A stretch of 58,783 bases of DNA from Alloscardovia omnicolens DSM 21503 (GTDB lineage Bacteria > Actinomycetota > Actinomycetes > Actinomycetales > Bifidobacteriaceae). Positions 1,609-13,834 of the stretch are shown here, in pieces. Position numbers and translations under genes: made by a program. How positions within the stretch are numbered: the first letter of the stretch is position 1; each line of letters starts with the position of its first letter. The stretch spans positions 1 to 58,783 of the forward strand of contig NZ_ATVB01000011.1 in NCBI RefSeq assembly GCF_000420505.1. The letters are read 5' to 3'. Below the pieces are notes generated by a model that did no database searches, was not told the DNA's origin, and was given only the letters and a program-made list of their open reading frames with translations.

Positions 1609-2394
1609 ATGACTGCATACATGGATCATAAAGACTTAGCAAACACCACAATCACGCCCGAAAGAGCACAACAAATCTCCGATGGCGTGCATCGAACGCT
1701 GGAAGCGGTCAGCCAGGCGGCAGTCAAAGCGGGGCGCAAGCCTCACGAGGTAACGCTACTTGCGGCTACAAAAACGCGCGACGTGGCAGAAATCCTGTCG
1801 GCTATCGACGCGGGTATCCGCTGTATCGGCGAAAATCGTCCGCAAGAAATCCTCGCGAAAGCAGAATGTCTCAAGCAGGGCCTAGCCGAGCGCGGTCTGA
1901 GCATACCTCAGCACATGATTGGTCAGCTGCAGTCAAATAAAATCTCTAAGGTACTGCCGTATGTGCAGGTTATCGAGTCGGTGGATTCGCTCAAGCTGGC
2001 CGAGCGCATCGCCCGCCGCCTAGAGGCCAGCGCAGAGACCAGCGAGCAAACGCACACTGTGGGCGTCTATCTCGAGGTAAACGAGTCGGGCGAGGAGAGC
2101 AAGTCGGGCTGCGAGCCGCAGGAAGCGCTCGAAATGGCGGCGGCGATTAACGCTATACCTCAGCTGCGTCTCGAGGGTCTCATGACTATCGGTGCGCATG
2201 TGCAGGACGAGAAAATCGTGCGCCGTGGTTTTGAGGACCTCCGCAATCTGCGCGATAGCCTGCGCGAAGGCGGTATCGAAACCTGCAGTCAGCTGTCGAT
2301 GGGTATGAGCGCGGATATGCAGTGGGCTATCGAGGAGGGCTCGACCATCGTGCGCGTGGGAACGGGCATTTTTGGCGCCCGCGCGTTTATCTAA
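1609..2394 (+). CDS. YggS/PROSC-family pyridoxal phosphate homeostasis protein
   Basis: This 261-residue protein belongs to the single-domain PLP-binding alanine-racemase-fold family, which carries PLP and affects B6 and amino-acid homeostasis but has no known catalytic turnover. The PLP lysine lies in LLAATKTR, followed by the family motifs GENRPQE (usually GENRVQE), HMIGQLQSNK, ESVDS, the SMGMSADMQWAI box and the C-terminal RVGTGIFGAR. The open frame extends back to 1474, but the extra 45 residues are not family-like and the TATAGT box points to 1609 (1621 is a second candidate). By eye this gene is richer in G/C-ending codons than its neighbours. In many bacteria it lies near division genes, which is not the case here. 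Confidence 0.92.
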   Translation: MTAYMDHKDLANTTITPERAQQISDGVHRTLEAVSQAAVKAGRKPHEVTLLAATKTRDVAEILSAIDAGIRCIGENRPQEILAKAECLKQGLAERGLSIPQHMIGQLQSNKISKVLPYVQVIESVDSLKLAERIARRLEASAETSEQTHTVGVYLEVNESGEESKSGCEPQEALEMAAAINAIPQLRLEGLMTIGAHVQDEKIVRRGFEDLRNLRDSLREGGIETCSQLSMGMSADMQWAIEEGSTIVRVGTGIFGARAFI

Positions 2395-8609: not shown

Positions 8610-9839
8610 ATGACTGCTCTAGACATCACGGAAAATGTAACGCAACTGGATCCAACACGCCTGCACGCGCTGTTCGAACGCATTATGCGCATCTACTCGG
8701 TTTCTGATGAAGAAAGCGCGCTCGCTGATGCTCTCGAAGAATATCTGCGCGGCTATGTGCATTTAGAGGTTCATCGCCATGAAGATACTGTGGTGGCTTC
8801 AACTCATTTTGGCAAGGCTGAGCGCGTGCTGCTGGTAGGCCATATAGACGTGGTGCCTGTTATCGATAACTTTCCGCCGCAAATATTGCAGCCAGGAGAT
8901 GCGCGTATCCGTGAAGACGTTGCGCGAGATTATCCGCAGTCTCCAGTTATGTGGGGGCGTGGAGCTACCGATATGAAGGCGAGCGATGCAGTATTTGCGT
9001 ATTTAGCGGGCGTTTTAGATAGCGCGGATAAGCTGCGTTGCGACGTGACTTATGTGTTTTATGACCATGAAGAAGTGCAGGCAGAGAAGAATGGTTTGGG
9101 TCATGTGCTGGCTGCGCATCCTGAGTGGGTGCAGGGAGATTTTGCGATTATTGGTGAGCCGACCAGCGGTCTTATTGAAGGCGGCTGCAACGGAACTATG
9201 CGTTTTGATGTGCTTACTCATGGAGTAGCCGCACATTCCGCGCGTGCATGGATGGGAGACAATGCGATTCATCATGCTGCTCGAGTACTGACTTTGCTTA
9301 GCGAATATGAGCCGGCAACGATTAGTGTTGACGGTTTGGATTATCGCGAAGGATTAAACGCAACCATGATTGAGGGCGGAGAAGGGACGAATATTATTCC
9401 GCAACACTGCCGTGTGCATGTGAATTATCGTTTTGCTCCAGATAAGACGATACAGCAAGCAAAAGCTTTACTGATGGGAGAAGGCTGCGCGACTGCTAGT
9501 GGAGTAGGAGTAGGGCCGGTACGAGCTGACGGGGGGCTTTTTGAAGGCTTTGATATTGATATGAAAGATGAATCAGCAGGCGCTCGCCCAGGTTTGCAGC
9601 ATCCGCTCGTTCAGTCTTTGGTATCTTTAGTTCGTGACGCAACTGGCGAGCAGCCACGCGCGAAATTTGGCTGGACAGATGTGGCGCGTTTTAGTTCTTT
9701 GGGAATTCATGCAGTAAATCTGGGTGCAGGAGATGCTCTGCTGGCTCATAAATCAGATGAACAAGTAGCTCTTGATGCTGTGACTGAGTATGCGCAACTT
9801 TTAGAGACGTGGCTCAGAGCAATTCCTGTGGTAAACTGA
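8610..9839 (+). CDS. dapE: Succinyl-diaminopimelate desuccinylase
   Basis: This 409-residue M20-family zinc hydrolase removes succinate from N-succinyl-LL-diaminopimelate in lysine and peptidoglycan precursor synthesis. Metal-site blocks are visible: LLVGHIDVVP (about residue 75), GRGATDMKASDA, the catalytic YDHEEV and IGEPTSG. The dimerisation domain begins near GTMRFDVLTHG, and the C-terminal LGAGDALLAHKSDEQV carries the last metal histidine. Length is slightly above the proteobacterial enzymes, typical of actinobacteria. It starts at leaderless distance from a -10 box. It is monocistronic as far as can be seen. Confidence 0.92.
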   Translation: MTALDITENVTQLDPTRLHALFERIMRIYSVSDEESALADALEEYLRGYVHLEVHRHEDTVVASTHFGKAERVLLVGHIDVVPVIDNFPPQILQPGDARIREDVARDYPQSPVMWGRGATDMKASDAVFAYLAGVLDSADKLRCDVTYVFYDHEEVQAEKNGLGHVLAAHPEWVQGDFAIIGEPTSGLIEGGCNGTMRFDVLTHGVAAHSARAWMGDNAIHHAARVLTLLSEYEPATISVDGLDYREGLNATMIEGGEGTNIIPQHCRVHVNYRFAPDKTIQQAKALLMGEGCATASGVGVGPVRADGGLFEGFDIDMKDESAGARPGLQHPLVQSLVSLVRDATGEQPRAKFGWTDVARFSSLGIHAVNLGAGDALLAHKSDEQVALDAVTEYAQLLETWLRAIPVVN

Positions 9840-9868
9840 ACTCGGTAACTCTGCGTAGTAACCACACA

Positions 9869-9941
9869 CTATGCGTTGATCCCCTTGCCTAATAGGGATG
9901 AAAACATGAGGATTTGTAGGCAAGCGTTGGCGTCCGCATAG
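9869..9941 (+). ncRNA. Folded 5' leader of the RNase E/G gene (candidate cis-regulatory RNA)
   Basis: The 227-nt gap before rne contains a nested fold: outer stem CTATGCG/CGCATAG (9869-9875/9935-9941) and inner stem CTTGCCTA/TAGGCAAG (9884-9891/9917-9924), both perfect. ATCCC at 9879-9883 can also pair with GGGAT at 9895-9899 inside the inner loop, giving a possible pseudoknot. I do not recognise a known riboswitch class. RNase E genes elsewhere are autoregulated through their leaders, so a similar role is possible. Whether it lies within the transcript is inferred. Confidence 0.5.
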
Positions 9942-10066
9942 ATATGACAGACTTTTAACCGTTTACGGTGCACCGATGAAACGAAACGTTGCAAAACGTG
10001 TCATCTTATAGGTGAGCTGTAAACACGGAAAGCACAGCAGACGCAGCTGCTTGACTGGAGACACAA

Positions 10067-13000
10067 GTGTCTGAGCGTATGAATCAGGAACCACCTGTTC
10101 TGGGACGTCGCACTAATAAAGGATCGCGCCGTGTTGTGCGTGTTAGCGGTTCTCAGGATTCCCAAGTAACACAAATTTCGCATACTGTATCTTCTCAAGA
10201 GACATCAGCTCAATCTCAGGTGAACGCTAAGCCTGAAAGTGCTGATACTACTCAGCAGGTACAGGCAATAACGCAGGCAGACGGGCAGAGCGTACAGAAT
10301 GCGGAGAATATGCCGAATGAGCGGGCTGGTGTGCAGACGGAAAAGCAATCGGATAAGCAGTCCAGCGACGGTTCTGAACCTGCAGATAGCGAGAAGAACC
10401 GCACGTCTGCACAGCAGACATCAGCGGCATATACGCGCAGCGACAAAGCTCAACGCATTGCTAGCGAACTCTTTGTTGATAGAGGCATTATTGTTCCGGA
10501 CGAAGTTGTTGTAGAAGAGTCTGCAACGCAGAAGAGTGCTCAGGAGAGCTCTCGCGCTGTTTCTGAGCATAAGCCTTCGGGAAGCACCGAGACCGATTCT
10601 GAGGAATCCGCTGTTACTTCGCAAGTGGTGGCAGAAGAAAAGACTCAAGAGCGAGACGAAAATCCGCGCGTTCAGCATTCACGCCTTCGCCGTCGTATCA
10701 CAATGGAGGATCGCGCTACCAGTGCTACCAGTGCCAACAGCGCTAACAGCGCTAACAGCGCTAACCGTAGCAATAACAGTGCTAATCGCGCGAAAGCCGA
10801 GGAGCAGTTTAGCGCAGCTCAAGAACCAGATTCTGCACAAGATACACCAACAGCACGTTCTGAACGTGCTCGTGCAGCAGTAAGTCAGGCTTTAGAGTTC
10901 TCGTCATCCCAAACAAATCATGAGGATGCTCGTGCAGTCGAAGAATTCAGTGCTCCAACCAATCCGATGATGAGCCTGCTGTTCCAAGCTCCTGTTATTC
11001 CTGAAATAACGCGCTCATCGCGTAGCGATTATCGCGATGAAGAGCAGGACGAGAATACCTTGCATCGCAATCGCCGTCATCGTCGCGATAAGAATCATGA
11101 GAACGCAGATAATAACGATGTTCTCGATACTATTAGCGTTGCTTTAGATGAAACTGAACGTTCTCGTTCAAGCGCACAGAATAATCAGCATGAGGATGAC
11201 GACAACGTGCGTTCTTCTCGCCGTCGTAACCGCAAAGATAAAAACGAACGTAACGAGCGCAATGAGCGTAACGAAGAAAACGGTTCTGCGGAATATGTTG
11301 ACGAATTCGACACAGATTCGCGCTCTCGTCGCAATCGCCGTCTGAATGCTCAAGAGCGTCGAGCAGCAGCAGAAGTCGAGCTGATTGAAAGCGACTTGGA
11401 GCTCGATGAGATTGACTACGAGCCTATTGAAGGCGATATGCGCAATGATGATGAAGCGGAAAGCTTTGAAAGCTCTTCGCGCCGTCCTCGTCGCCGTAGC
11501 GCTATGCTTCAAGAAGCTGAGGAAGCGGATGAAGAGTTCACCACACGTCGTCGTCGCCGTCGTCGCCGTGGCTCGAAGAATGCGCAGGACGATGATAATC
11601 AGTCGTCTGATTCGTTGTCTTCTTCAGTAGACACAGGAGAAGATACGCGCGGTCGTTCCCGTAAGCAGCAGTATATTGATGAAATTACGGATGTTGCCGG
11701 TTCAACACGTTTGGAAGCGAAGCGTCAGCGTCGTCGCGATAATCGTCGCGACCGTAACCGTCAGTCAGCACTGATTACAGAGCAAGATTTCTTAGCTCGC
11801 CGTGAAGTAGTCAACCGTTTAATGGTTGTGCGCGAACGCGGAAGCCATACGCAGGTCTCCGTTATTGAAGACGATGTGCTGGTTGAACATTATATTTCCG
11901 ATATTGCAGAAGTATCCGCTGTGGGCAATATTTACCAAGGTCGCGTGCAAAACGTGCTGCCAAGCATGGAAGCAGCCTTCGTAGATATTGGTCAGGCGCG
12001 CAACGGTGTGCTGTATGCAGGCGAAGTGAATTGGGATACCACACGTTTAGATGGTCAGCCTCGTCGTATGGAACACGCTTTCCAGTCAGGCGATCCTGTG
12101 CTCGTTCAGGTAACGAAAGATCCAATCGGACATAAAGGTGCACGCTTAACCAGCCAGATTACTCTTGCAGGTCGTTTCCTTGTGCTCGTGCCATCGGGAA
12201 GCATGACAGGAGTAAGCCGCAAACTTCCTGAACGCGAGCGTGCTCGTTTGAAGTCTATTGTGTCGAAAGTAGCTCCAGAAGAAGTGGGCGTTATTATTCG
12301 AACCGCTGCTGAAGGCGCTCCTGAAGAAGCTATTATTAAAGATTTCGAGCATCTGAAGAACCAGTGGGAGCATATTTCTGCTCAGTTAGAGGAACTGAAG
12401 AACTCCAAGAAACCGCATCTCCTGCAAGGCGAGCCAGACGTTGTTATTCGCGTGATTCGAGACATCTTTAACGATGACTTTAAGAAGCTTGTTGTTGAGG
12501 GCGAAGATGTATATAACCGCATTCATGAATATATTGAATCTGCTGCGCCTGATTTGCTTGACCGCGTAGAACGTTGGGACCCAGCAGAGCATCGAGGTAA
12601 AGACGTGTTTGACCGCTGGCAGATTGATAGCCAGTTGCGTAAGGGCATGGAGCGTCAGGTATATTTGCCGTCCGGCGGTTCTTTGGTTATTGACCGTACC
12701 GAAGCAATGACCACGATTGACGTGAATACAGGACGTTTTATTGGCAAGGGCAAGTCGCTGGAAGAGACAGTTACCCGATGCAATTTGGAAGCTGCTGAGG
12801 AAGTTGTGCGTCAGCTGCGTTTGCGCGATATTGGAGGCATGGTCATGATTGATTTCGTGGATATGGTGATGCCTGCTAACCGCGATCTTGTTTTGCGTCG
12901 ATTGGTTGAGTGTTTGTCTCGAGACCGTACGAAACATCAGGTTGCTGAAGTAACCTCGCTGGGTTTGGTTCAGATGACACGAAAGCGCGTGGGACAAGGC

Positions 13001-13588
13001 TTGGTTGAAGCCTTCTCAGAGGAGTGCCCAACCTGTGGTGGTCGTGGCTTTATTTTGCATGACGAGCCAACTGTGTCCGCTCAGTATGATGATCCGTATG
13101 CAATGAAGGGTGGAGATCCTTTCGTAAAGACAAATAAGCATGCGGCTCACTCTGCACATGCTGCTCATATTGCTCATGGAAAGGTGAGCGAGACTGCTCA
13201 GCCACGCGAAGAACGCGCTGGAACGAGTGAAAAAGCTAAAAACTCTATGGCAGCAATTGCTGCAGCTTCGGCGAATGCAAACAGTGGATACAGCGTTGCG
13301 GTGTCTTCTGGTGTGTCTTCTGGAGTGCCGGGCAATGCTGTGGTTTCTAATGCTCAGAGTGAAGGCGGTCAGTACAATAACAGTGCAGCAGATGGAGCTG
13401 AAAATCGTAGCGATGGTCGTAGTGATGATCGCAATGAAAGAGCGGACACGAGCGAAACGCCAAGCGTGGAAAACCGTGAAGCATCTACAACCTTGGCTTT
13501 GATTTCTGAAGACCTCAAGACCTTGCAAGAGTCACGTGGTTCTCGGGCGGGCAAAGAGCATAATCAGCATAATCAGGAAGTCGAGTAA
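10067..13588 (+). CDS. rne: Ribonuclease E/G family endoribonuclease
   Basis: This 1173-residue enzyme makes endonucleolytic cuts in mRNA decay and rRNA/tRNA processing. The catalytic half begins near residue 590: S1 domain around GNIYQGRVQNVLPSMEAAFV (about residue 618), DNase-I-like part with catalytic Asp motifs IDVNTG (about residue 884) and IDFVDM (about residue 929), then the zinc-link CPTCGGRG (about residue 987). The first ~590 residues are low-complexity and rich in S, N, E, R and Q, with SAN repeats (10716-10790), NER repeats and Arg tracts. The last ~150 residues are Ala/Ser/Asn-rich. The start is GTG with GGAG 7 nt ahead. The long N-terminal extension is common in actinobacterial RNase E. 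Confidence 0.95.
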   Translation: MSERMNQEPPVLGRRTNKGSRRVVRVSGSQDSQVTQISHTVSSQETSAQSQVNAKPESADTTQQVQAITQADGQSVQNAENMPNERAGVQTEKQSDKQSSDGSEPADSEKNRTSAQQTSAAYTRSDKAQRIASELFVDRGIIVPDEVVVEESATQKSAQESSRAVSEHKPSGSTETDSEESAVTSQVVAEEKTQERDENPRVQHSRLRRRITMEDRATSATSANSANSANSANRSNNSANRAKAEEQFSAAQEPDSAQDTPTARSERARAAVSQALEFSSSQTNHEDARAVEEFSAPTNPMMSLLFQAPVIPEITRSSRSDYRDEEQDENTLHRNRRHRRDKNHENADNNDVLDTISVALDETERSRSSAQNNQHEDDDNVRSSRRRNRKDKNERNERNERNEENGSAEYVDEFDTDSRSRRNRRLNAQERRAAAEVELIESDLELDEIDYEPIEGDMRNDDEAESFESSSRRPRRRSAMLQEAEEADEEFTTRRRRRRRRGSKNAQDDDNQSSDSLSSSVDTGEDTRGRSRKQQYIDEITDVAGSTRLEAKRQRRRDNRRDRNRQSALITEQDFLARREVVNRLMVVRERGSHTQVSVIEDDVLVEHYISDIAEVSAVGNIYQGRVQNVLPSMEAAFVDIGQARNGVLYAGEVNWDTTRLDGQPRRMEHAFQSGDPVLVQVTKDPIGHKGARLTSQITLAGRFLVLVPSGSMTGVSRKLPERERARLKSIVSKVAPEEVGVIIRTAAEGAPEEAIIKDFEHLKNQWEHISAQLEELKNSKKPHLLQGEPDVVIRVIRDIFNDDFKKLVVEGEDVYNRIHEYIESAAPDLLDRVERWDPAEHRGKDVFDRWQIDSQLRKGMERQVYLPSGGSLVIDRTEAMTTIDVNTGRFIGKGKSLEETVTRCNLEAAEEVVRQLRLRDIGGMVMIDFVDMVMPANRDLVLRRLVECLSRDRTKHQVAEVTSLGLVQMTRKRVGQGLVEAFSEECPTCGGRGFILHDEPTVSAQYDDPYAMKGGDPFVKTNKHAAHSAHAAHIAHGKVSETAQPREERAGTSEKAKNSMAAIAAASANANSGYSVAVSSGVSSGVPGNAVVSNAQSEGGQYNNSAADGAENRSDGRSDDRNERADTSETPSVENREASTTLALISEDLKTLQESRGSRAGKEHNQHNQEVE

Positions 13589-13759
13589 AAGGCCGCTACC
13601 AAGCAATAATCGTGAAGATTTTGTTTGCAGCAACGAAACAGGGCGCGTAACCGTATTGCTCGTCCAAACTAGGCAGTAAAGTTACAAGTCCTGTGTGTTG
13701 CTCGACTTGACGGATGTCAAGCGATGCAATATATTAGATTGTTGGTGTCTTGTGAACGC

Positions 13760-13779
13760 CTCGGGTTGGTATGCCCGAG
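13760..13779 (+). promoter_or_regulatory. Small hairpin in the rplU leader
   Basis: CTCGGG pairs with CCCGAG across an 8-nt loop, 55 nt before the rplU start, with no T tract. The 246-nt gap 13589-13834 shows no other clear element. It may be an L21 leader structure or simply a stem in the 5' UTR. Confidence 0.35.
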
Positions 13780-13834
13780 AACAGTTTAGAAGATAAAACG
13801 AACGTTAAAGCTTTTAAGAGGCAAAGGTAAGAAC

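Follow-up and report, generated by a model that had tools for sequence, protein, structure and literature searches.

A conserved RNA structure precedes rne, a gene of the RNase E/G family, in Bifidobacteriaceae, and we interpret it as a cis-acting leader of the rne mRNA that most likely lets RNase E regulate its own synthesis, a reading given a little better than even confidence. The 73-nt hairpin at 9869-9941 of the window (the whole 58,783-nt stretch of Alloscardovia omnicolens DSM 21503 DNA that was analysed) had been put forward in a preliminary description as a folded leader upstream of rne. It proved to be conserved and covarying, but the element is larger, the hairpin forming the middle of an RNA of about 9844-10069, and the two loops joined by its predicted tertiary contact are other ones than those proposed. 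This larger RNA is predicted to sit at the 5' end of the rne mRNA, and comprises or adjoins the following features.

9829-9837, + strand: TGG-TAAACT, an extended -10 box that overlaps the dapE stop; transcription predicted to start near 9844
9844-9863, + strand: P1, the 5'-terminal hairpin, 9844-9850 paired with 9857-9863, with one A-A mismatch in the window
9851-9856, + strand: P1 loop K, CTGCGT, partner of 10041-10046
9869-9941, + strand: P2, the hairpin of the preliminary description, from folding, model alignment and pair counts
9950-9954, + strand: GACTT, predicted unpaired, fitting RN↓CNU (arrow, cut); RNase E predicted to cut between 9951 and 9952
9961-10024, + strand: P3, a long hairpin, weaker, from single-sequence folds only
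10036-10051, + strand: P5 hairpin AGCAG-ACGCAG-CTGCT, just 5' of the Shine-Dalgarno sequence
10041-10046, + strand: P5 loop K', ACGCAG, complementary to K
10057-10060, + strand: Shine-Dalgarno sequence GGAG, 10-11 nt past K' in 83 of 95 leaders
10067-13588, + strand: rne (RNase E/G family), GTG start; TIGR00757 at 481.7 bits (cut-off 325.95)

The gene 5' of the leader is dapE, and the GTG of rne at 10067 lies 125 nt 3' of the hairpin end. GTG was the rne start codon in 94 of 95 leaders and ATG in the other, as found by a script that accepted these two codons alone. The best NCBIfam match of the rne protein was the mycobacterial RNase E model, at 697.6 bits and so below that model's cut-off of 1400. 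In translation the protein has an N-terminal extension with low-complexity Ser-Ala-Asn repeats (about 10720-10800 of the window). A gap of 246 nt (13589-13834) separates rne from the next gene, taken from its translation as rplU (ribosomal protein L21), and leaves room for a separate leader.

To describe the distribution of the RNA, a covariance model of its 5' half was built from 20 leaders; of the 22 collected by that stage, L053 and L060 were left out, the latter carrying a long insert. The model matched 168 of 189 Bifidobacteriaceae genomes, with a single match in the A. omnicolens genome itself, and in an order-wide draw of 297 genomes all 22 matches fell in Bifidobacteriaceae. Scores were 56.7-90.4 bits for the 100 aligned members, 49.9 for L044 and 37.6 for the long-loop leader L060. 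Among the matches listed, the leader lay on the same contig and strand as the RNase domain, 1311-2714 nt 5' of it, in 134 of 136 genomes, and in the remaining two (G121 and G070) the listed leader was near the end of another contig. The arrangement that marks RNase E autoregulatory leaders, a conserved structured leader directly upstream of rne, is present. A DNA search of 59 relatives matched nine, namely the genome itself, four other Alloscardovia species and four genomes through 21-27 bases only. At 20 loci upstream of rne in other genera GATCCCC was present in 17, each time followed by the TCCG side of the hairpin, and an 18th (L044) matched the model. Two model matches were reported for one genome of the Bifidobacterium group (G071).

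The 21 family genomes without a model match comprised two with long-insert leaders, four without an rne match (search at E 1e-30) and 15 with rne, in which no convincing leader match was obtained with filters off (best 14.7 bits). In the long-insert leaders the P2 apical loop is expanded by approximately 100 nt while the 5' half is otherwise kept (L232 of G083, 1992-2214, minus strand; L060 of G009, 1855-2052, minus strand); L232 was matched in two halves, at 14.3 and 12.8 bits. The 15 leaderless rne frames are short (480-775 aa), and several of these genomes are small or incomplete. In leader-bearing genomes rne encodes about 900 aa or more among the matches listed. Loss or gain of the leader may have gone along with that of the long N-terminal extension.

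Members outside the family were sought with a pattern scan giving 50 stretches; when the 19 from outside were rescored, 14 reached 9.5-21.2 bits (up to E 10) and five gave no match. These 19 were taken as chance occurrences, the core pattern being present in them by construction. A genus (g2) that appeared to carry the RNA away from rne was dropped, as its flanking sequence reads as rne by eye.

Folded alone, the 73 nt showed a modest gain over shuffled sequences (z -1.92; 8 of 200 shuffles as good), and since the lone fold is only slightly better than its shuffles the case for the structure was made by comparison. In the window the outer stem of P2 pairs CTATGCG (9869-9875) with CGCATAG (9935-9941) over 7 bp and the inner stem pairs CTTGCCTA (9884-9891) with TAGGCAAG (9917-9924) over 8 bp, with further pairs between GAT (9878-9880) and GTC (9932-9934) and between CC (9882-9883) and GG (9929-9930). 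The near-invariant sides of P2 read GATCCCC and GG-N-GTCCG. Pairs were counted over 100 model-aligned loci, 95 of them distinct, the other fetched loci being duplicates or beyond the 100 sources. Among the 95 distinct leaders standard pairs occupied 95.2% of cells, compared with 84.5% (sd 0.4) when the 3' letters were shuffled and 33.5-55.4% in slid-partner controls; since fitting the alignment to the structure under test biases the outcome towards it and the sequences share ancestry, the shuffle figures are not to be read as probabilities. Changes on both sides were found at 17 of 25 pairs. In P1 they were present at all seven pairs, with 96.7% of cells paired over the 95 distinct rows, and in P2 at 10 of 18 pairs, where the inner pairs GAU/GUC and CC/GG hardly vary. 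The two perfect nested stems of 7 and 8 bp in the preliminary description were right in both letters and positions, and both are kept across the family with compensatory changes, complementary substitutions being present in relatives in each stem as a covariation check on their leaders would look for. This comparison establishes P1 and P2, as aligned, as conserved, covarying helices directly upstream of rne.

Minimum-energy folding of the 5' half alone recovered at least 80% of consensus pairs in 63 of the 95 distinct leaders (96% in the window). When the whole leader was folded, that level was reached for P1 and P2 in just 14 of the 95, and the fold of the window's leader had none of these pairs. 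The predicted full-length folds thus conflict with the covariation, to which more weight was given; beside this conflict it was noted that the 5' half is transcribed first.

The preliminary description had also proposed a pseudoknot in which ATCCC (9879-9883) pairs with GGGAT (9895-9899). That pairing is possible in the window yet not conserved, and it was dropped as a conserved element: five consecutive Watson-Crick pairs with GATCCCC were possible in 7 of 82 distinct loops, with 2.7 expected from shuffles. Allowing G-U pairs gave 9 of 82 against 5.1 expected, a slight excess. The 82 distinct loops came from 99 of the 100 leaders, one (L107) having been skipped by the parser. The nearest relative (G003, L002) has GACCCC and GGGAA, that is, neither ATCCC nor GGGAT. 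The near-invariance of GATCCCC fits its place in the stem, where GAU has GUC and CC has GG as its pairing partner.

A different contact emerged between the loops of P1 and P5. The loops K and K' are complementary in 97 of 100 leaders, 95 identified by script (five consecutive pairs, G-U allowed) and two by eye, the latter (L148 and L149) having failed the script through a misparsed Shine-Dalgarno sequence and reading TGCAG on inspection. Three leaders (L072, L073 and L080, by eye) have one mismatch and are true exceptions. These three are related and combine the P1 loop CTGCC with the P5 loop GTCAG; the six other CTGCC leaders carry GGCGG. The tables of kissing pairs cover the 95 of 100 leaders passing the script, in which the types are CTGCA/TGCAG (82), CTGCC/GGCGG (six), CTGCG/CGCAG (five) and CTGTA/TGCAG (two), the CTGCG/CGCAG type being that of Alloscardovia, the window included. 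On a tree of these 95 leaders calculated with the loops excluded, pair 5 underwent two independent double changes, A-U to C-G and A-U to G-C, the direction of change on this tree depending on midpoint rooting. Pair 6 underwent three double changes from pair to pair and one from a non-pair, together with one-sided changes, nine to or from a non-pair and nine between pairs. It is a standard pair in 80 of 95 leaders and unpaired in the other 15; 2000 shuffles averaged 44.6 leaders with a standard pair there and never exceeded 62. The comparison of leaders demonstrates complementarity between the loops of P1 and P5, the latter beside the Shine-Dalgarno sequence, with compensatory changes consistent with a contact between the two.

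The 3' part of the leader is more varied. Single-sequence folds gave P3 as one long hairpin in four of five Alloscardovia leaders, the fifth (L067) folding otherwise. Alifold analysis of 78 distinct leaders, out of 90 from outside Alloscardovia, returned P5 and a hairpin P4 (loop GGUGAGAG), with several pair types at each pair, and no P3. P4 lies between GACUU and P5 and is strongly kept in these 78 aligned leaders, and in many Bifidobacterium leaders the stretch corresponding to P3 carries it instead. The predicted P5 helix, and P4 in Bifidobacterium, are thus supported by pair counts.

A putative promoter stands directly before P1. In all 87 of the 100 leaders that could be parsed, the -10 hexamer ends 6-8 nt 5' of P1; it is CATACT in 74 of these and TGn precedes it in 81. 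Twelve of the 13 unparsed leaders have GATACT or AATACT by eye. A strict sigma-70 scan of 9700-10200 that needed both hexamers gave zero promoters. Because the -10 box stands 6-8 nt before it, P1 probably forms the transcript's 5' end. Transcription from a start 3' of 9941, which would speak against the hairpin belonging to a leader, is unlikely with a -10-like box lying upstream, the start being a predicted one and the two-hexamer scan empty.

Beyond P2, in a stretch predicted unpaired in the consensus, a sequence fitting RNCNU was found at one and the same position in all 100 leaders, as GACTT in 97, AGCTT in two and GGCTT in one. In vitro, four mapped cuts by Mycobacterium smegmatis RNase E are described in the available text of PMC10641625, each at RN↓CNU within a single-stranded part. 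According to the same text, cuts by the mycobacterial enzyme did not track the loops predicted to be single-stranded, and an earlier study cited there saw inhibition of the M. tuberculosis enzyme by a single C in a U oligonucleotide. The motif is thus a mycobacterial one, and its occurrence here is a sequence match in bifidobacteria, whose RNase E specificity may differ. RNCNU is also loose, with a mean of 3.9 occurrences per core; the site is the only one in just 3 of 95 leaders, and another lies inside helix P2 in 82 of 95. As the motif is so loose, the argument for a cut site rests on its invariance and predicted single-strandedness. The U run that follows GACUU in the window is not kept, many Bifidobacterium-group leaders reading GACTTGA. 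The kept RNCNU suggests, from sequence, that RNase E itself may be the effector. Also reported for M. smegmatis, in the part of PMC10641625 available, is a longer half-life of a repressible rne transcript than of the native one, an observation by analogy compatible with leader-driven instability.

When 4227 Rfam models were searched against 9600-10300 there was no match up to E 5, which bears out the earlier remark that the element is unlike any known riboswitch class; there is no pointer to a small-molecule riboswitch. The rne5 model (RF00040, gathering score 180) did not match at the leader, and its sole match in the genome, of 18.4 bits, is on another contig; one of 14 controls exceeded the cut-off. 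The rne-II model (RF01756, gathering score 50) gave no match up to E 10, in a search where 0 of 14 controls exceeded the cut-off and which hence had no positive control. Actino-pnp (RF01688) is, going by its name, associated with a ribonuclease gene. Like the element described here it is an actinobacterial structured leader, according to the accessible part of PMC2864571, but of another gene, and it has no match in the window.

The closest systems are other leaders of RNase E genes. In E. coli, feedback involves binding of RNase E to a stem-loop of its 5' UTR, with the primary cut within that UTR (PMC3997798, as far as its available text goes). A table in the accessible part of PMC2864571 lists rne-II of Pseudomonadales, so that from these partial sources rne5 and rne-II are likewise structured leaders of the RNase E gene. 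In the bifidobacterial leader the 5'-terminal hairpin loop is predicted to pair with the hairpin preceding the Shine-Dalgarno sequence, its separation from E. coli rne5 being one of model search only. Synechocystis RNase E cuts its own 5' UTR and autoregulation has been proposed, according to the available sections of PMC10989929; there the enzyme cuts at six consecutive U residues and the model includes premature termination, whereas the bifidobacterial site is a predicted GACUU and no terminator-like site was seen. No report of an RNase E leader or of RNase E autoregulation in Bifidobacterium or actinobacteria was found in the open-licence literature, as far as its accessible text extends.

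The preferred mechanism would operate as follows. RNase E in excess would recognize P2 with its near-invariant asymmetric internal loops and would cut at GA↓CUU beside it. The cut would detach P1 from the remaining mRNA, with loss of the P1-P5 loop contact, and would leave a 5'-monophosphate feeding further decay of the rne message. With RNase E busy elsewhere, the leader would stay whole and closed, with its 5' end base-paired and the message stable. The contact beside the Shine-Dalgarno sequence may also tune translation, in either direction. By analogy with what the available texts describe, such a mechanism would resemble that of the rne leaders of E. coli and Synechocystis, yet the RNA matches neither Rfam rne model. 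The proposal in the preliminary description of an RNase E feedback sensor is plausible in that a conserved, covarying rne leader with an RNCNU site is present, while feedback and cleavage are what we infer from it. The binder of P2 could alternatively be another protein or a small molecule.

The last point leads to the main alternative, in which some other effector uses the leader as a translational switch or repressor site. Such an effector, for instance a ribosomal protein of rplU-rpmA, another RNA-binding protein or a metabolite, would stabilize P2 or the P1-P5 contact and so alter ribosome access. The near-invariant asymmetric internal loops of P2 are what a ligand or protein site would show, P5 abuts the Shine-Dalgarno sequence at a nearly fixed spacing (10-11 nt in 83 of 95 leaders) and the start is GTG in 94 of 95. 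However, the element precedes rne rather than rplU, 5' of which lies a separate gap of 246 nt, and this alternative leaves the invariant RNCNU site unexplained; we consider it rather unlikely, at about one chance in four. The same site, together with the near-invariant P2 internal loops, is also left unexplained if the leader is a passive stability element whose 5'-terminal hairpin and 5'-3' loop contact shield the mRNA from 5'-end-dependent decay with no feedback, and this explanation, consistent as it is with the location of P1 at the predicted 5' end, appears improbable.

Two further possibilities concern the region around the candidate cut. A released 5' fragment consisting of P1 and P2 (approximately 108 nt in the window) might act as a small RNA whose P1 loop pairs with other mRNAs; it would be compact and conserved with an exposed CUGCA-type loop, but that loop co-varies with P5 in cis, making such a role very improbable. 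A strong hairpin followed by GACUUUU is reminiscent of a transcription attenuator. The U run, however, starts 11 nt past P2 in the window and is not kept across leaders, and a terminator scan found no terminator-like site in the leader; an intrinsic terminator was ruled out on that result, and attenuation seems scarcely credible. Autoregulation by RNase E remains the favoured reading of the conserved leader. We propose more tentatively, as a possibility short of even likelihood, that it represents a new class of ribonuclease sensor in which a 5'-terminal loop kisses the hairpin next to the Shine-Dalgarno sequence, closing approximately 190 nt, and in which the GA↓CUU cut made by RNase E itself would open the closure and switch both decay and translation.

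RNase E feedback acting through the leader of rne is established for E. coli, while for Synechocystis it is a proposal, as far as the available texts of those studies describe. The explicit predicted cut site and predicted loop contact make the question directly testable in bifidobacteria. If the interpretation given here is true, the bifidobacterial leader would constitute a new Rfam family, and it would suggest that sensing of RNase E by the leader of its own message arose more than once with unrelated RNAs.
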